A stretch of 57,559 nt of DNA from Deltaproteobacteria bacterium (GTDB lineage: Bacteria; Bacillota; Desulfotomaculia; Desulfotomaculales; JAGUVT01), in NCBI GenBank assembly GCA_020062745.1, contig JAGUVT010000033.1:1-57559 (forward strand), given 5' to 3'. The notes under the pieces are model-generated. The model did no database searches and was not told the origin of the DNA. It worked only from the letters and a program-made list of their open reading frames with translations. The first letter of the stretch is position 1. Each line of letters opens with the position of its first letter. This document shows positions 4,008 through 33,204 of this stretch, piece after piece. Both the position numbers and the translations under genes were made by a program.

Positions 4008-5015
4008 TCAGTTTTTACCGTCGGGCCACTTTATTACCAGCGCGCCCCAGGTTAAACCGGTGCCAAAACTGACGATTACAATAAGATCCCCGCCCTTGAT
4101 CCGGCCCTCCTGCAAGGCTTCATGCAGGGCCAGGGGAATTGAAGCAGTGGAAGTATTGCCGTAGCAATCAACGTTGACCATCACTTTTTCCATGGGCAGG
4201 TTCAGCCGTCTGGCAGCAGCCTCAATAATACGAATATTGGCCTGGTGGGGCACTAAAAAGTCTATGTCCGACTGATTAAAGCCGGCCATCGTCAGCACTT
4301 CCAAAGCAGCCTCCCCTAACGTCCGGACGGCAAATTTAAATATTTCCCGCCCGTTCATAGTGGCATAATGCAATTTTTTGTCCACCGTTTCCTGGCTGGT
4401 GGGCATTCGCGACCCACCGGCCGGCAGCGTCAAAAACGGCGCCCCGGCGCCATCGGCCCAGAGACGGAAAGCCAGGATACCGCTGCTGCTCGCTACCGGC
4501 CTTAAAACCGCCGCTCCGGCGCCGTCCCCGAAGAGCACACAAATGTTGCGATCCTGATAGTTAATCACCCGGGAGAGAGTTTCCGCCCCGATCACCAAAA
4601 CGGTGCGGTAAGCCCCGGTAGCGATAAACTGGCTGCTTAAACCGACGCCGTAAACGAAACCGGTACACCCGGCGACCAGGTCGAAAGCAGCCGCCCTCCT
4701 GGCTCCCAGACGCTCCTGAACCAAGCAGGCAGTAGCGGGGAAAGTCATGTCCGCCGTGTTGGTGCAAACAATAATCAAGTCTACTTCCAGAGGATCCACT
4801 CCGGCGTCGGCCAGAGCACGCTCACCGGCAATCACAGCCAGGTCGGAAGTGGCCTGCTCCGGTTCAGCAATACGCCTTTCCCTGATGCCGGTTCTTTCTA
4901 TAATCCAATCATTAGAAACATCTACTATTTTTTCCAGATCAGCGTTAGTCAGTACCCCCTCCGGCACATAAGTCCCCATTCCGACTATCCCCGCATTCAT
5001 TAAATCCCTGCTCAC
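4008..5015 (-). CDS. fabH: 3-oxoacyl-ACP synthase III
   Basis: GTYVPEGVLTNADLEK, AFDLVAGCTGFVYG, VPHQANIRIIEAAA, NVDCYGNTSTAS motifs. Confidence 0.96.
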   Translation of the reverse strand: MSRDLMNAGIVGMGTYVPEGVLTNADLEKIVDVSNDWIIERTGIRERRIAEPEQATSDLAVIAGERALADAGVDPLEVDLIIVCTNTADMTFPATACLVQERLGARRAAAFDLVAGCTGFVYGVGLSSQFIATGAYRTVLVIGAETLSRVINYQDRNICVLFGDGAGAAVLRPVASSSGILAFRLWADGAGAPFLTLPAGGSRMPTSQETVDKKLHYATMNGREIFKFAVRTLGEAALEVLTMAGFNQSDIDFLVPHQANIRIIEAAARRLNLPMEKVMVNVDCYGNTSTASIPLALHEALQEGRIKGGDLIVIVSFGTGLTWGALVIKWPDGKN

Positions 5016-6024
5016 TACTTGCTTCCAGCCCCCTTATTTTGAAAATTTCCGTACAATTCTGAATAGCCTCCACCAGCCGGTTTTCCACCGATTCACGGGC
5101 CAGCCGGATCGCATTTTTGATTGCCTTTTCCTTAGAACTGCCGTGACAAATAATCGCCACGCCGTTCACACCCAACAGCGGAGCCCCTCCGTACTCGGCA
5201 TAATCCAGACGCCTGCGGAAATTCCGCAAGGCATACAGGGCAACGGCTGTTCCCAACCTGGCCAACCAGTTTCTGGCTATCTCTTCCTTAAACATTTTGA
5301 ATAAAGCAGCAACCATTCCCTCCCCTGTTTTCAAAACGATGTTACCGACAAAACCGTCACAAACCACAACATCCACGGTACCCTGGAAAATATCGCGGCC
5401 CTCTACATTGCCGGTAAAATTCAAGCCGGAATTTTTTAACAAAGGAAAAACCGACAGAGTAAGTTCATTACCCTTGGTCTCTTCCTCCCCCACGCTCAAA
5501 AGCCCCACCTTCGGGGCGGAAATAGCCAGAATCTTCTGAGCGTAAAGATACCCCATCAGCCCGAACTGAAGGAGTTGATGCGGTTTACAATCAACATTTG
5601 CCCCGGCATCAAGCAAAACGGTAAAGCCCTTTTCATTCGGCAACACACTGGCAATCGCAGGCCGGTCCACGCCTTTGATCCTTCCCACCTGCAACAAGGC
5701 TGCCGCCATGGCCGCCCCCGTGCTTCCGGCTGAAACAAAAGCCTGGGCCGAACCTTCCTTAACCAGCCTGGCAGCCATCACAACTGAAGAATTCTGCTTC
5801 CGCCGTACCGCTACCGCCGGGGGTTCCCCCATTTCGATTACTTCCGGAGCATGCAAAATATCAACCAGGCTGTTGCAATTGTCTCCACCCATTCCGGAAC
5901 GCACCTGCTTCTCGTTTCCCACAAGAATGATCTCTAAGCCGTATTCCCGCGCTGCTGCCAGGGAGCCCTTGATAATTTCACCGGGAGCATAATCACCACC
6001 CATAGCATCCACAGCAATTCTCAC
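4945..6024 (-). CDS. plsX: Phosphate acyltransferase PlsX
   Basis: VRIAVDAMGGDYAPGEIIKG (GTG start after a GGGGT RBS), VVCDGFVGNIVLKTGEG; 3' end overlaps the fabH start. Confidence 0.94.
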   Translation of the reverse strand: MRIAVDAMGGDYAPGEIIKGSLAAAREYGLEIILVGNEKQVRSGMGGDNCNSLVDILHAPEVIEMGEPPAVAVRRKQNSSVVMAARLVKEGSAQAFVSAGSTGAAMAAALLQVGRIKGVDRPAIASVLPNEKGFTVLLDAGANVDCKPHQLLQFGLMGYLYAQKILAISAPKVGLLSVGEEETKGNELTLSVFPLLKNSGLNFTGNVEGRDIFQGTVDVVVCDGFVGNIVLKTGEGMVAALFKMFKEEIARNWLARLGTAVALYALRNFRRRLDYAEYGGAPLLGVNGVAIICHGSSKEKAIKNAIRLARESVENRLVEAIQNCTEIFKIRGLEASSEQGFNECGDSRNGDLCAGGGTD

Positions 6025-6165
6025 TACGGTTTTACCCCTTCCGGTTCCAGCTTTACGCAACTAAAGACAGTATAAAAGACCTGACATCATTTTGCAAGTT
6101 AATGGAAAAAAAATAAGCTTTAAACGTCTGCGCCAAAGCTCATCTTAAAAAAACATATTTCCTTA

Positions 6166-6342
6166 TTATTTCGCAGTAACGACCTCTCTACCCTTATAGT
6201 AACCACACTCCGGACATAACTGGTGAGGTTTAATTAAAGCATGACACTGTCCGCATGGCGCTAAAACCGGAGCTGTAAGATTCTTGTTGGCCTGCCGCTG
6301 TTTCTTGCGCTGCTTTGATGTTCTCCTCTTCGGTACTCCCAT
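6166..6342 (-). CDS. rpmF: 50S ribosomal protein L32
   Basis: 58 aa, below the ORF-track cutoff: MGVPKRRTSKQRKKQRQANKNLTAPVLAPCGQCHALIKPHQLCPECGYYKGREVVTAK. Confidence 0.95.
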   Translation of the reverse strand: MGVPKRRTSKQRKKQRQANKNLTAPVLAPCGQCHALIKPHQLCPECGYYKGREVVTAK

Positions 6343-6343
6343 T

Positions 6344-6868
6344 TCATTGCCCCCTGTTGTTTTTTAATAAATCTTTCAATCCCGCCAGGCGGGAATAAGA
6401 GTTTTCCCTGTCGGCACAACGGCAAACATTTTTATTGAGATTGACCCCGCACTGCCGGCACAGGCCCAGGCATTCCTGCCGGCACACTACTTTCATCGGC
6501 AGGCTTATTAATATACTTCTTCGCACTTCCGGAGCCAAATCAATAACATCGCCATTAAACGGCACCGCTTCTTCGCCGGTGCCGGCTTTCCCCTGCACGG
6601 CGGGATAATAAGTCTCAACCATTGGCGCCGTGAAGGAATAATCAAAAAGTTCCAGGCAACGGTTGCAGTTAAACTTCAAGTTTCCGGTAATGTTCCCCTC
6701 CACCTGAAACAATCCATCTCCATTAAAAACCGCCACCTTAACCATCACCGGGCCGGTAAAGACGTTTTTCTCACCGAGATGTTCCAGCGGAGGTAATTCA
6801 GAACTTAAATTAAAGTATACCAACTCACCGGGCCGCCGTTTCAATTCAGCCACATTTATCTGCAGCAT
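6344..6868 (-). CDS. YceD/DUF177 family protein
   Basis: CNRCLELFDYSF...CLGLCRQCGVNLNKNVCRC cysteine pattern; immediately upstream of rpmF. Confidence 0.9.
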   Translation of the reverse strand: MLQINVAELKRRPGELVYFNLSSELPPLEHLGEKNVFTGPVMVKVAVFNGDGLFQVEGNITGNLKFNCNRCLELFDYSFTAPMVETYYPAVQGKAGTGEEAVPFNGDVIDLAPEVRRSILISLPMKVVCRQECLGLCRQCGVNLNKNVCRCADRENSYSRLAGLKDLLKNNRGQ

Positions 6869-7008
6869 TTACCATGTCTCCCGTCTTACTAACAGTGAGT
6901 ATTATATTAGACGCTTAAGGCGTTGTCAACATTTTTCAAATTAGCGGTCAGCAGTTCTTCTAACCGGCATGATGGTGTCCATATAATTATTACAGCTATT
7001 CCAATAAG

Positions 7009-18329: not shown

Positions 18330-18980
18330 TCAGAAGGTAGATTCAATCTCATCCCGCCCGGTTTCCACGACGGGGTCTTCGGTGTACATCCGGTACAAGG
18401 CATTGATGCCCAAGCGAAAGTTGGCGTCCCTTACGGCCATGGGAACGAGAAAAGCATCAACCAGCCACCAGAAGACAAGCACCCATTTGACCAGGGATGA
18501 TATGAACATGACGGCAAAGAACAAAGACATCAGCCCGGCCCGCCAGTAGTGCCCAAGGTAGTAGCGGTGTCCGCCGCCAAGCCCGGTAAACAGCCACAGC
18601 ACCCAGGCGCCGGGCAGGCTTCTGCCCCGTACGGCCAGCTCGCCCCGCACCACTTTTGCCTCTTCTTCCGTAAGCTCCACAAACTTTTCCGGCCGGGACT
18701 GCCAGGCGACGGCCAGGGCGCCGCCTGCAACCCCCAGCACGTCGCCCGCAATCAGGCCGCCCTGAGAACCGGCAAAGGAAATAACCGACAGGACCATGAT
18801 AGAGACGCCCAGCGCAGTGTGCGCCTGCGGGTAAAATAGAAGCAGGAGAGCCAGCACCCACATCAAAAGGCCGACGGCCATGCCCATATTCAACATATGC
18901 GCTCCCACCCGAAACATCGCCGCACCGCCGATAAGGGTAAAAACAGCAGCGGCGACGGGCCGCTGCGCATGACTGAACAT
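18330..18980 (-). CDS. TM2-domain membrane protein with DUF6114-like N-terminal half (paralog of 20640..21383)
   Basis: WLFTGLGGGHRYYLGHYWRAGLMSLFFA...WWLVDAFLVPMAVRDANFRLG (TM2); N-half LLLFYPQAHTALGVSIMVLSVISFAGSQGGLIAGDVLGVAGGALAVAWQ. Confidence 0.8.
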   Translation of the reverse strand: MFSHAQRPVAAAVFTLIGGAAMFRVGAHMLNMGMAVGLLMWVLALLLLFYPQAHTALGVSIMVLSVISFAGSQGGLIAGDVLGVAGGALAVAWQSRPEKFVELTEEEAKVVRGELAVRGRSLPGAWVLWLFTGLGGGHRYYLGHYWRAGLMSLFFAVMFISSLVKWVLVFWWLVDAFLVPMAVRDANFRLGINALYRMYTEDPVVETGRDEIESTF

Positions 18981-19193: not shown

Positions 19194-19784
19194 TCATTCC
19201 GTAAAAATTTCTTTTAAATTTATTTCCAGTCCGTCGAAAACGCCCACCCCTACCTTATCATTCCGCGCATATATTTCAGCCCTTCCATACTTAGTGTACC
19301 CTGCCAGCTTATAGACCATTACAATTTCATCTGCCGGATGGACTATCCAGTACTCCTTTACTCCATGCCTTTCATACAAAGCCAGTTTCTCTATATAATC
19401 CATTGATGCCGTTGACGGAGAAACAATTTCGACGACTAAATCCGGGCTGCCCTTGCAACCTTTGTCGTCCAGCTTGGACTTGTCGCAGACCACAACCAGA
19501 TCCGGTTGAACGACCGTTTTTATCTCCTCATCCTTTTCATCTCCCTCGGGCAGCCTTACATCAAACGGAGCTCCGTAGACTTCACAATCTTTGCCTTTTA
19601 AAAAATTATAAAACTCGCTCAACAGCGCCGCCAATACTTTCTGATGCCTCCTGGACGGCGCCGGAGCCATACCATAGGCAACTCCGCCTATCAACTCCCA
19701 CCTTTCTGAATCAGGCCAGTTCAAGTAATCTTTGTAGCTGTATTTTTTATCTTCTCTCTTTTCAGGGTACATCATCAATGTCAT
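19194..19784 (-). CDS. Uma2 family (DUF820) restriction-endonuclease-like protein
   Basis: RWELIGGVAYGMAPAPSRRHQKVLAALLSEFYNFLK...VVQPDLVVVCDKSKLDDKGCKGSPDLVVEIVSPSTA. Confidence 0.92.
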   Translation of the reverse strand: MTLMMYPEKREDKKYSYKDYLNWPDSERWELIGGVAYGMAPAPSRRHQKVLAALLSEFYNFLKGKDCEVYGAPFDVRLPEGDEKDEEIKTVVQPDLVVVCDKSKLDDKGCKGSPDLVVEIVSPSTASMDYIEKLALYERHGVKEYWIVHPADEIVMVYKLAGYTKYGRAEIYARNDKVGVGVFDGLEINLKEIFTE

Positions 19785-19924
19785 CCCCGTTTTACTTCCG
19801 GATAAACAATATTAAGCCATATCCTGCTAATTTATAGTTTACCACAAACCATCACTTTACAAAACACCCCTGTGAAAGCAAAGCCCGGGTTGTATTCCCG
19901 GGTTGCTTGTATATATCTTTCATT

Positions 19925-20227
19925 TCATCTAAGTGTTTCTTTAAGCAACTGGCGCCCATGCCCTACAAACATTATTAATATCTGATTTTGCTCCTCTGTA
20001 AAATTATAAATAACCCGATAATTACCTACTAAAATCTCTCGATATAGTAAATTGGACAACTCAGGCACTACACGACCCATTTGTGGGAAATATGTAAGTT
20101 TTGAAACTGCACTTTGAATGTTTTCGACTTGTATCCGGGCATATTGAATCGAATCCCTGGCTATAAATGAATAAATCTCCTGCAAATCGTTGAGTGCCCG
20201 TAATGTCCATTTTATTTTCCGAACCAC
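19925..20227 (-). CDS. Type II toxin, RelE/ParE superfamily
   Basis: KIKWTLRALNDLQEIYSFIARDSIQYARIQVENI...LLYREILVGNYRVIYNF. Confidence 0.9.
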   Translation of the reverse strand: MVRKIKWTLRALNDLQEIYSFIARDSIQYARIQVENIQSAVSKLTYFPQMGRVVPELSNLLYREILVGNYRVIYNFTEEQNQILIMFVGHGRQLLKETLR

Positions 20228-20400
20228 TCAGAAGTCTCCCTGACTACTTCCTCATGTGAGACAAGTCGGCCCTCACGAACATCCTTTTCTGCAGCCTCGA
20301 TTTTCTGCCTGAGATAAAGCCGGTACATAACCTCATCGATGTCTACTTCCTCCGGCAAATCCTTTATCAGTTCAAGAATTTGCTGTTTAGCAATAATCAT
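20212..20400 (-). CDS. Cognate antitoxin (RelB/ParD-like), overlapping the toxin start
   Basis: 62 aa, 16-nt overlap with the toxin ORF; LYLRQKIEAAEKDVREGRLVSHEEVVRETSEWFGK. Confidence 0.85.
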   Translation of the reverse strand: MIIAKQQILELIKDLPEEVDIDEVMYRLYLRQKIEAAEKDVREGRLVSHEEVVRETSEWFGK

Positions 20401-20618: not shown

Positions 20619-20643
20619 GTGACAGAGAACCGTCCCCTGTCAC
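20619..20643. repeat. Dispersed repeat, copy A: GTGACAGAGAACCGTCCCCTGTCAC
   Basis: 21 nt identical in inverse orientation to 33017..33036; overlaps the stop codon of the TM2 gene. Confidence 0.75.
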
Positions 20644-21383
20644 AGTCCGACGCTTTCGGCTTCGGTTTCGACGACGGCGCCTTCGGTGTGCATCTGCTTC
20701 AGGGAGAGGATGCCGAGGCGGAAGTTGGCGTCTTTAACGGCCATCGGGAGCAGGAAGGCGTCCACCAGCCACCAGATGATCAGAATAAGGGGAACACCCA
20801 GGGCCAGCACAAGCATGATGATGTCCTTCGGCTGCGGGCGCACGATCAGCAGCACGCGGTAGCCCGCCGCGATCGCAAAGAACAGAGACATCAGGCCGGC
20901 CCGCCAGTAGTGGCCCGTGTAGTAGCGGTGGCCGCCGCCAAGGCCGGTGAAGAGCCACAGCGCCCAGGCGGCGGGCAGGCTTTTGCCCCGTCCGGCCAGC
21001 TCGCCCTGCACTACTTGCGCTTCCTCCTCCGTAAGCTCCACTTTCTTTTCCGGCTGGGGCTGCCAGGCGATGGCCAGGGCGCCGCCGATAATGCCCAGCA
21101 CACTGCCGACAATTAAACCGCCCAGGGCGCCGACGAAGGAAAAGACCGACAGGGCGATGATGAAGACGCCCAGCACGGTGTGCGCCTGCGGGTAAAACAG
21201 GAGCAACAGCGCCAGCACCCACACCAGAAGGCCGATGGCCATGCCGAGCATGGTGGTGGCCGTATTGGAAAAGAAAATGAGCTTCAGCATCTGCGCCCCG
21301 ACCCAGAGCATCGCCGCGCCGCCGAAGAAGGTAAAAATAGCAGCGGCGGTGGGCCGCTGCTTATGACTGAACATATCTTTCAA
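20640..21383 (-). CDS. TM2-domain membrane protein with DUF6114-like N-terminal half
   Basis: LLLFYPQAHTVLGVFIIALSVFSFVGALGGLIVGSVLGIIGGALAIAWQPQPE plus TM2 region WLFTGLGGGHRYYTGHYWRAGLMSLFFA...WWLVDAFLLP. Confidence 0.8.
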   Translation of the reverse strand: MKDMFSHKQRPTAAAIFTFFGGAAMLWVGAQMLKLIFFSNTATTMLGMAIGLLVWVLALLLLFYPQAHTVLGVFIIALSVFSFVGALGGLIVGSVLGIIGGALAIAWQPQPEKKVELTEEEAQVVQGELAGRGKSLPAAWALWLFTGLGGGHRYYTGHYWRAGLMSLFFAIAAGYRVLLIVRPQPKDIIMLVLALGVPLILIIWWLVDAFLLPMAVKDANFRLGILSLKQMHTEGAVVETEAESVGL

Positions 21384-21475
21384 AACACCTCTTCTTTTAA
21401 AAATAATTGTTTAAATAAAAAGGGAACCGGGCAATACATAAAACGGGCTTAACTTAATTCATGTCTCAAGCAAGA

Positions 21476-22390
21476 TTAGCTCTGCGGCAAAGTGTCAAGC
21501 GGATCCGCCGGCAGAGGTGTGTTAGCAGGCATTTCCGTAGTCTCGTCGGTGTCGGTCGGGTCGACGATAATCCGCAGCCGCATGGCCGGGATGGAAATGT
21601 TGCCCGCATAGAGCATATGGGTGTTGATGGTCGCGTTGGTCAGCTTCATGTCGTAACTGCTATCGGTCAGAGAACCCGCGTCATCAGCATAAATACCATC
21701 CGGGTCGGCGGAGATGTAGACGTCAGGAATGATTTCCGTCGACTGGTTGCCAGGCGTACCCGGATCGAGGTCTACGCCCTTGGCCAGCGGCTGGCGCAGG
21801 TAGTTGGTGTCGGTCTGCCCGGGTGTCTTGGGCCCAAACGGCAGAGGCAGCCCGGTGTTCTGGCTCGGGCCCTGCTCGTCGACCAGCAGGCCGTGGAAGT
21901 CTGCAACGTCCGCCACCAGGCCGTCGATATTCAGGGTCAGGTAGCCGCCGGTAACGGGAGTGCCCAGGTCGCCGCCCTTGATCCAAACTCTTACCTTGTC
22001 GAAGGGTAGCGCGATGGCGCTCAGCCCCTGGATGTCCTTGGTCAGGGTCAGGTCGGTGATCACAGCGCCCTTCAAGGTGACGATGCCCAGCGGGTAGGTG
22101 TCCTGCTTCTCCGTGCCGTCACCCCAGTCGCTATTCGAATACTGCGCATAAACATCACTCAGCGTGTAGCTGGTGTCGTTGGTCGTCAAACCGAGCAGGA
22201 AGCCGCCGCCCAGGATCTGATCGGCGTAAATGTCGAAGCCGCCGATGCCGGTAATCGGGAAGGCGAAGGCGATGCCCGAAAGGATGAACGCGGCAATGAT
22301 CATGGCCAGCACCAGGAAGCCGGCGAGAAAAGAAATCATGAAACGCTTGCGGTGAAAATAACTGCCCGCCACTAGAGTCATTATTCTCAT
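21476..22390 (-). CDS. Membrane-anchored extracytoplasmic protein, uncharacterised (DUF6230-like)
   Basis: N-terminal TM (FMISFLAGFLVLAMIIAAFILSGIAFAFPI), then a beta-rich ectodomain GGFDIYADQILGGGFLLGL...; paralogous to 22814..24103. Confidence 0.7.
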   Translation of the reverse strand: MRIMTLVAGSYFHRKRFMISFLAGFLVLAMIIAAFILSGIAFAFPITGIGGFDIYADQILGGGFLLGLTTNDTSYTLSDVYAQYSNSDWGDGTEKQDTYPLGIVTLKGAVITDLTLTKDIQGLSAIALPFDKVRVWIKGGDLGTPVTGGYLTLNIDGLVADVADFHGLLVDEQGPSQNTGLPLPFGPKTPGQTDTNYLRQPLAKGVDLDPGTPGNQSTEIIPDVYISADPDGIYADDAGSLTDSSYDMKLTNATINTHMLYAGNISIPAMRLRIIVDPTDTDETTEMPANTPLPADPLDTLPQS

Positions 22391-22628
22391 TACCTCCTTT
22401 TTTTTAGCTGTCAGCTATTAGCTGAAAGCTGTTAGCTGTGAGAGAAAAGGTAACACAATCTAATCATCTAATCTACTTTTAATCTGCTTTTGCCCGTTTG
22501 TCTGCCCGGTTCCCATAACTGGAAATACTGTCAGTGGTTTTTTGTTAATCACCCCTTTCAAGCAAACGATAGAAGGGAAAAAACATATTCTTTCTCCCGG
22601 ATTCTTCATTTGTAATCAGTCAGCTAAA

Positions 22629-22711
22629 TAAAAAACGCAACCAAAACCAATTCATCGGCCGGTTGCACCACTTTCTCCGTGCGGTATAAGGCGCCCATAT
22701 ACTAACCGCAC
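22629..22711 (-). terminator. Two-hairpin element ending in a U-tract, between the two ectodomain-protein genes
   Basis: Minus strand: GTGCGGT...TACCGCAC hairpin, then GCAACC...GGTTGC hairpin followed by GTTTTTT. Confidence 0.5.
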
Positions 22712-22813
22712 TTCTTCGAATCCGAATGTTCAATTAAAACGTAATATATTTCTGATAATTTGTCAAGTCCTATTTTTCAGAAAATTTATGATTAAAGAAT
22801 TATCCTTCCACTG

Positions 22814-24103
22814 CTACGGATTGATCACCAGCCTGATCCGCACCTTCTGTAAAGTGAAGGTGTCGGCCGTGACGGTGTGGGCGTTGAAGCGGAAGTCGGT
22901 CATTTCAAAAATATTCGAACTGTTATAGAGGTAAACCGGATCTACTGTGGCGTAGTTGTCGGAATAATAAACATTGCCTTGAACAGTGGTACCGCGCAGG
23001 CCGCTGGCCAGAATCGTCAGGTTTTCCGCGGAAGAAGCGGGTGTAGCCCCGTCGGACCTGATCCACAGGCGGATCTTGTTTATGGGGCTGCCGTAGTCCA
23101 CGTCCCTGGTGAAGATGAGATCGTTAGTAAATTCAGGGGCGGCAAAGTCGAATCCGGCCATGTCGTAGGTGTCCTGCTCGGCAGTGTCGGCGCTGGCGGG
23201 GTACTGCTGGAAGTACACCGATTCAACCACCCGGGAGGAAGCCACGGCAAAGCCGCCGACGCCGGGAATGGGGAACACGTCGTCGCCGGGTAAGGACTCG
23301 CTCGAGGTTTTCTCAGGCACTTCCCGGCTTTCCGTCGGGTCGATGATGAAACGGAAGCGCATGTTGGGAATGGAAAGACCGCCCGCATAGAGCATATGCG
23401 TATTGATCTGCGGGGCGGTCAGGATCAATTCGTCGGTGTAGAGGTTGTCCGGATCGGCGCTGATATAGACGCTGTTTATCACCGGGTTGCCGTGGCGCAG
23501 ATAATTGGTGCCGCCGTCGTCGGTGAAGGGGTAAGGCAGCCCGCCGGAAGCCGCGGCCGGGCCGTTTTCATCCACTACCAGTTTCTTTAAGTCAATGGTT
23601 CTCGCCGCCACGCCGGTGATGTTCAGGGTAAGGTAGTCGCCGGTGGCCGGGGTGCCGCCGTCGCCGCCCCGGATCCAGAACCGTACGGCGTCGAAAGGCA
23701 GGCCGATGGTGCTCAAGCCCCTGATGTCCTTGGCAAAGGTCAGGTTGGTGGCGGCGGCCCTCTTCAACACCACCAGCAGCACCGGGTACCTGTCGGCCTT
23801 TTTCGTCCCGCCGGGCCATTCGCCGGTGGCGTAAACGTCATTTAAGGAAGGCGAAGTGTCGCTTGTGGTCAGGGCCATTAAAAAGCCGTCGCCGACGATC
23901 TGGTCGGCGTAGACGACGCCGCCGCCGATGTTCGCTATGGGAAAGGCAAAGCCGGCGGCGGCCAGGATCAGAAAAAAGACAAGCAAACACAGCAAACCGC
24001 CGGCGGCGGCGATGAGAAAACGTTTCCGGTTAAAGTTGCCGACTGCCGCCACGATAAAAACCCCCCTGCCGTTCTTCAACAATACCTCAACCGCCATTAT
24101 CAC
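22814..24103 (-). CDS. Membrane-anchored extracytoplasmic protein with two tandem ectodomain repeats, uncharacterised (DUF6230-like)
   Basis: TM segment FLIAAAGGLLCLLVFFLILAAAGFAFPI; repeat units end ...INTHMLYAGGLSIPNMRFRFIIDP and ...FNAHTVTADTFTLQKVRIRLVINP. Confidence 0.7.
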   Translation of the reverse strand: MIMAVEVLLKNGRGVFIVAAVGNFNRKRFLIAAAGGLLCLLVFFLILAAAGFAFPIANIGGGVVYADQIVGDGFLMALTTSDTSPSLNDVYATGEWPGGTKKADRYPVLLVVLKRAAATNLTFAKDIRGLSTIGLPFDAVRFWIRGGDGGTPATGDYLTLNITGVAARTIDLKKLVVDENGPAAASGGLPYPFTDDGGTNYLRHGNPVINSVYISADPDNLYTDELILTAPQINTHMLYAGGLSIPNMRFRFIIDPTESREVPEKTSSESLPGDDVFPIPGVGGFAVASSRVVESVYFQQYPASADTAEQDTYDMAGFDFAAPEFTNDLIFTRDVDYGSPINKIRLWIRSDGATPASSAENLTILASGLRGTTVQGNVYYSDNYATVDPVYLYNSSNIFEMTDFRFNAHTVTADTFTLQKVRIRLVINP

Positions 24104-32936: not shown

Positions 32937-33016
32937 ATAGTGCCGGTCTAAAGCACGGTCACCGGTAATCAATCCGAGAAAGACCACCTTTTCATCATAA
33001 CGAGCCAGTAACGAGC

Positions 33017-33036
33017 CAGGGGACGGTTCTCTGTCA
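33017..33036. repeat. Dispersed repeat, copy B (inverse of 20619..20643)
   Basis: CAGGGGACGGTTCTCTGTCAC. Confidence 0.7.
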
Positions 33037-33204
33037 CACTCCTGGTTATTGCTAACAGACAGGGGCAATTAATTTTCAGGATAGTAGCAGGATAGTAGAA
33101 AGAAGAAAAGGTGCTTTTCTTTTCTACTGGCTCCTGGACTCTGACTTCTGTATTCTGATCTTATGATACACGTGCAAACAAACTTTATCAAATTTTTTTG
33201 ACCG

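Follow-up and report, generated by a model that had tools for sequence, protein, structure and literature searches.

Four minus-strand genes in a stretch of DNA from a clostridia-like bacterium (57,559 nucleotides, referred to in its entirety as the window) encode what is, judged by sequence, a variant of the DUF6230-DUF6114 envelope module: two membrane-anchored ectodomain proteins (P0001 and P0002) and two membrane partners (P0003 and P0004), each carrying an extra TM2 segment. We know of no function for either DUF6230 or DUF6114. The pair itself is a known, if uncharacterised, pair of families; what is new is the fusion of DUF6114 with TM2, the tandem ectodomain of P0001 and the wider module found in relatives. 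An earlier, sequence-only reading of this DNA had called the module undescribed, which is right only in part, since annotations of the pair already exist in Actinobacteria (Rhodococcus) and the novelty lies in the TM2 fusion and the tandem ectodomain. A survey of genomes now ties DUF6230 and DUF6114 together across bacteria and archaea and names a likely third partner, a fusion of DUF6114 with an acyl-CoA ligase offers a functional lead, and the pair becomes testable in Streptomyces or Bacillus-like strains. The one paper found that mentions DUF6230 does so solely as a promoter source (PMC12835213).

The three co-directional minus-strand genes that the sequence-only reading had proposed (P0001, P0002 and P0003) are all present as open reading frames at the positions given in Table 1, and the 92 bp that it placed between P0002 and P0003 is exact. 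P0002 lies directly upstream of P0003 on the same strand, and these two genes constitute the DUF6230-DUF6114 pair of the window. P0001 is separated from P0002 by 423 bp; it may therefore be a separate unit, and whether the two share a transcript is uncertain. The sequence-only reading had overlooked a further complete DUF6230 domain in P0001 and the entire P0004 gene, a paralogue of P0003 that has no DUF6230 neighbour. P0001 and P0002 are likewise paralogues (47% identical). P0001 is 429 residues long when read from its GTG, with an ATG two codons further in as the alternative start. P0003 has 247 residues if read from a TTG; its likely start, to judge from the MFSH with which its paralogue P0004 begins, is the ATG at 21374.

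Two features of the surroundings are recorded here for completeness. An Uma2-family gene and a ParE-type toxin gene (19194-20400 of the window) separate P0004 from P0003, and a short ORF upstream of the ParE-type toxin gene may be its antitoxin. A 25-bp dispersed palindromic repeat, GTGACAGGGGACGGTTCTCTGTCAC, occurs in the window at 20619-20643 and 33013-33037; the genome holds six copies (allowing up to 2 mismatches), one of which overlaps the end of P0003.

Table 1. Features of the module, in window coordinates, with the evidence for each assignment
Feature	Position	Strand	Evidence
P0001, TM-anchored protein with two DUF6230 domains	22814..24103	(-)	Pfam match below cut-off; HMM built without window sequences
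P0001, predicted TM helix (aa 29-47)	23963..24019	(-)	Hydropathy 2.91 over 19 residues
P0001, ectodomain 1, DUF6230 (~aa 49-270)	23294..23959	(-)	47 bits with TM helix removed
P0001, ectodomain 2, DUF6230 (aa 277-427)	22823..23275	(-)	iE 2e-8; 34.7 bits alone
P0002, TM-anchored DUF6230 protein, 304 aa	21476..22390	(-)	HMM 110 bits, E 7e-33; AlphaFold2 helix then strands
P0003, DUF6114-TM2 fusion membrane protein	20640..21383	(-)	Pfam DUF6114 E 3.7e-19; TM2 E 2.3e-5
P0003, DUF6114 domain (aa 8-108)	21060..21362	(-)	Pfam profile match; 72.4 bits in a separate search
P0003, TM2 domain core (aa 133-174)	20862..20987	(-)	Pfam TM2; tblastn to annotated TM2 proteins
P0004, second DUF6114-TM2 fusion	18330..18980	(-)	63% identity to P0003; DUF6114 43.4 bits, TM2 20.8 bits
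Terminator-like hairpin after P0003	20518..20548	(-)	12-pair stem, T-rich tail; consensus match only

The DUF6114 character claimed for the N-terminal half of the third gene product is secure at the level of Pfam (PF19609, cut-off 27.9 bits): P0003 scores 69.8 bits and P0004 43.4 bits. The proposed fusion with TM2 (PF05154, cut-off 27.9 bits) fares less uniformly, its DUF6114 part standing and its TM2 part giving scores that straddle the cut-off in P0003 (24.9 bits by hmmscan, 28.6 bits in a six-frame search) and stay below it in P0004 (20.8 and 24.6 bits, respectively). Residues 114-217 of P0003 do match annotated TM2 proteins on plasmids by tblastn. Among 113 genomes of its class, the DUF6114-TM2 fusion was found solely in the genome from which the window comes, and a pattern scan of genome contigs found no relatives of it; that scan is not exhaustive, because it demands near-exact short stretches. 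The AlphaFold2 model of P0003 is all helical, with DUF6114 as four helices and the TM2 part at lower confidence, and it gave no significant match in a PDB fold search. The model did align with a 134-residue chain, probably p22phox, from the human phagocyte NADPH oxidase (8gz3_A) at a probability of 0.98 and a TM score of 0.58, but with an E value of 1.2, and the alignment was therefore set aside as a generic four-helix match.

Assignment of the ectodomain proteins takes a longer path. The Pfam model of DUF6230 (PF19741, cut-off 27.5 bits) finds P0001 at 22.9 bits (E 1.1e-4) and does not match P0002, so that neither protein would be assigned to the family by the Pfam cut-off alone. An intermediate HMM built from twelve DUF6230 proteins from outside the window gives 110 bits for P0002 and 99 bits for P0001 (over two domains), and matched 0 of 1000 shuffled sequences. 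The ectodomains continue to score against this HMM with their TM helices removed: 78 bits for P0002 and 47 and 34.7 bits for the two domains of P0001. The intermediates on another contig of the same genome (C84) and in two other genomes (G166 and G116) themselves score 32-40 bits with the Pfam model, above its cut-off, and P0002 matches the C84 protein at E 1.9e-11. A direct comparison of profiles, made with three sequences from Actinobacteria, gave no significant result (hhalign probability 1.7, E 0.029), and the actinobacterial link thus runs via the intermediates. It is this comparison, and the silence of the Pfam model on P0002, that would speak for mere convergence of a hydrophobic N-terminus and a beta-rich sequence in proteins unrelated to DUF6230; the scores of the TM-free ectodomains, the shuffled sequences and the clear DUF6114 gene adjoining the ectodomain genes make that explanation very improbable. 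The resemblance to DUF6230 noticed at the outset is accordingly well founded through intermediates, and by these profiles P0001 and P0002 belong to the family. Two other matches were discarded: that of P0002 in genome G018 is to an unrelated lysozyme-like protein (judged by eye) and a weak DUF6230 match in G267 sits in a giant repeat protein.

Each ectodomain protein has one strong N-terminal TM helix (residues 19-37 of P0002 by hydropathy). The AlphaFold2 model of P0002 consists of one helix (14-41) followed by about 10 beta strands (mean pLDDT 59.9, best blocks 75-87) so that, as a prediction, the suggested plan of a TM helix followed by a beta-rich ectodomain agrees with the model and with the hydropathy of both proteins. 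A PDB fold search with that model, of mean pLDDT 59.9, gave no significant match (best E 0.41), a sequence search of the PDB returned no relatives and no solved DUF6230 relative was found.

Among 398 Bacillota genomes, DUF6114 is found above cut-off in the genome of the window and in seven others. All seven carry a DUF6230 match as well, which exceeds its cut-off in six and falls just short of it in one; the overlap extends to 3 of 3 genera (P ~1e-6 at genus level, without correction for relatedness between genera). The window's own genome carries another copy of the pair on contig C84 (locus L016), where the gene for a 195-residue DUF6230 protein (32 bits, which passes the cut-off) directly precedes a DUF6114 gene (62.5 bits). 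The same arrangement is present in G166 and G116, with both members above their Pfam cut-offs, in G162, in 16 Bacillaceae loci and in five archaeal genomes or plasmids (loci L040, L057, L058 and L074-L076: Natronococcus, two Natrinema and a further two archaea); DUF6230 also directly precedes DUF6114 in Rhodococcus, Streptantibioticus and Nonomuraea. In three genomes of one genus (G120, G204 and G290) DUF6114 sits far from DUF6230. The adjacency that had been taken as conserved therefore holds in most relatives and fails in these three, and none of the refuting outcomes that had been named in advance, such as absent profile similarity or lost adjacency, came up. Beside the C84 pair lie genes for two secreted Cu_amine_oxidN1 proteins (L016 4182-5114 and 6889-7752) with long Gly-Val-Asp repeats such as GGIVGDVVGTVDGAT.

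In relatives, the pair frequently has company. Downstream of it, 15 of the 16 Bacillaceae loci encode a secreted protein with a DUF6230-like domain (iE ~2e-9 to 9e-15); the remaining locus, L052, is truncated, with a length of 5017 bases. A third gene with such a domain is also present on C84 (L016 8864-9976, iE 5e-11) and in G166 (iE 5e-10). In examples from Mesobacillus and Cytobacillus, 11-residue repeats come after this domain; their hydrophobicity period, 3.65-3.70, is near the 11/3 of an amphipathic helix. In a Neobacillus example the repeats are less regular. Natrinema has a secreted 11-residue-repeat protein downstream with a lag-11 self-identity of 0.46 (the range for the Mesobacillus, Cytobacillus and Natrinema examples being 0.25-0.46), and Natronococcus has one in which the repeats are recognized by eye. 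No DUF6230 domain is detectable by HMM in these haloarchaeal third proteins or in the third gene of Streptantibioticus (L061). In a second haloarchaeal module (L086 of G544, 4716-6875), a secreted Thr/Glu-rich protein is encoded upstream of DUF6230 and not downstream of DUF6114. The window has no secreted third protein beside its pair. The repeat proteins draw apolipoprotein, apolipophorin and phasin matches, all below Pfam cut-offs; amphipathic helices of low complexity readily draw matches of this kind, which are therefore no more than suggestive. Amphipathic repeats are also known from spacers and coiled coils.

The three genomes in which DUF6114 is far from DUF6230 provide a different kind of clue. 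In each (loci L082-L084), DUF6114 is the N-terminal part of an 870-873-residue frame, the rest of which is an AMP-binding acyl-CoA ligase (Pfam E 9e-108 and 6e-109 in the two of the three that were tested). An ABC1-type kinase gene lies immediately upstream of this fusion, and one also adjoins the set of DUF6230, DUF6114 and third gene in G166. The fusion probably represents one evolutionary event in one genus. Near the Natronococcus module there are genes for an acyl-CoA ligase, some 3 kb distant and on the opposite strand, and an SDR protein, and in Streptantibioticus a NAD_binding_4 protein (fatty-acyl-reductase type) is encoded upstream of DUF6230. The Bacillaceae loci that were read have no lipid gene nearby, and the link to lipids consequently rests mainly on the one fusion event.

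What the module does can be argued in several ways. Our preference, held tentatively as a hypothesis with some contextual support, is for an envelope complex of single-membrane cells that works outside the membrane and handles acyl lipids or some other hydrophobic ligand. DUF6114 would sit in the cytoplasmic membrane and outward-facing DUF6230 domains would dock on it; the docked pair would bind its ligand, stabilise it or pass it between membrane and outer envelope. A lipid-surface or spacer element would be supplied by the secreted partner, with its 11-residue amphipathic repeats; in the window, the second domain of P0001 may substitute for the DUF6230 domain of that partner, and DUF6114 may gain additional membrane contacts from the TM2 hairpin. 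Such a complex is favoured by the family profiles, by the joint occurrence of the two families in Bacillota genomes, by their adjacency in the majority of loci and by the secreted third protein that most of the loci read encode. The DUF6114-acyl-CoA ligase frame of three genomes, the NAD_binding_4 protein of Streptantibioticus, the amphipathic repeats and the sub-threshold apolipoprotein and phasin matches point to lipids. Against this explanation as a whole count the probable single origin of the fusion, the Bacillaceae loci devoid of lipid genes, the composition-prone and sub-cut-off nature of the apolipoprotein-type matches, the missing repeat protein in the window, the ectodomain without a fold match, the distance of DUF6114 from DUF6230 in G120, G204 and G290 and the position of the Natronococcus ligase.

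The lipid-handling complex is not clearly ahead of a structural envelope system, to which we would assign a comparably modest likelihood and in which DUF6230 proteins would be surface or wall-layer subunits, DUF6114 would anchor them in the membrane or assist their assembly, and a spacer crossing the envelope would be formed by the secreted repeat protein, with no ligand carried. The duplication and variable length of the ectodomains are consistent with a structural role, as are the location of the Bacillaceae loci outside any metabolic cluster and the repeat-rich secreted Cu_amine_oxidN1 neighbours of the C84 module, but fusion to an acyl-CoA ligase is unexpected for a pure anchor. Haloarchaea also carry the module and have no peptidoglycan, so a role tied strictly to the wall would not apply throughout. 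Rather improbable is a sensing or regulatory complex, in which a signal from the envelope would be picked up by the DUF6230 ectodomain and relayed by DUF6114, alone or together with TM2: pairing of a single-TM ectodomain protein with a polytopic one, and an ABC1 atypical kinase gene adjacent in one genus, would suit it, but the window proteins have short N-terminal tails and no cytoplasmic signalling domain. Defence and phage origins were rejected, there being no PADLOC match for the former and, for the latter, no DUF6114 among phage records and only two PHROGs (of unknown function) that match just the TM2 part.

To return to lipid handling, its most inclusive form is more doubtful than its core. 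It would have Bacillota, Actinomycetota and haloarchaea share an unrecognised module, composed of an anchored DUF6230 protein, DUF6114 in the membrane and a secreted partner with amphipathic repeats. In single-membrane cells this module would move acyl lipids, or hold them, on the outer side of the membrane, and the window would be a derived form with TM2 built into the membrane component. We regard that combination, composition and lipid role taken jointly, as somewhat unlikely.

Comparison with known systems places the window genes beside the Actinomycetota PF19741/PF19609 pair, exemplified by Rhodococcus plasmids pRaL13f and pR8L1. The gene order is common to both (a TM-plus-ectodomain gene followed by one for a multi-helix protein) and there is profile-level similarity between the proteins. 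In contrast, the window ectodomains are longer, one of them being tandem, and its DUF6114 proteins carry a C-terminal TM2 and are present in two copies. The Bacillaceae module (Mesobacillus, Cytobacillus, Neobacillus) has the two families adjacent and in the same order as the window; unlike the window, it includes a third, secreted protein in which repeats accompany a DUF6230-like domain, and it is devoid of TM2. The haloarchaeal module (Natronococcus, Natrinema) also keeps this order (DUF6230 at 38.7 bits and DUF6114 at 90.9 bits in Natronococcus) and differs in its repeat-rich third protein, without a detectable DUF6230 domain, and in lacking TM2. With TM2 proteins (PF05154) the window shares the GxGGGHRYYxG motif and the two-helix pattern, here as the C-terminal part of a DUF6114 protein and with scores around the Pfam cut-off. 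The DUF6114-ligase fusion of G120, G204 and G290, finally, resembles the window fusion in having DUF6114 at its N-terminal end; its partner is an AMP-binding enzyme, whereas that in the window is TM2.
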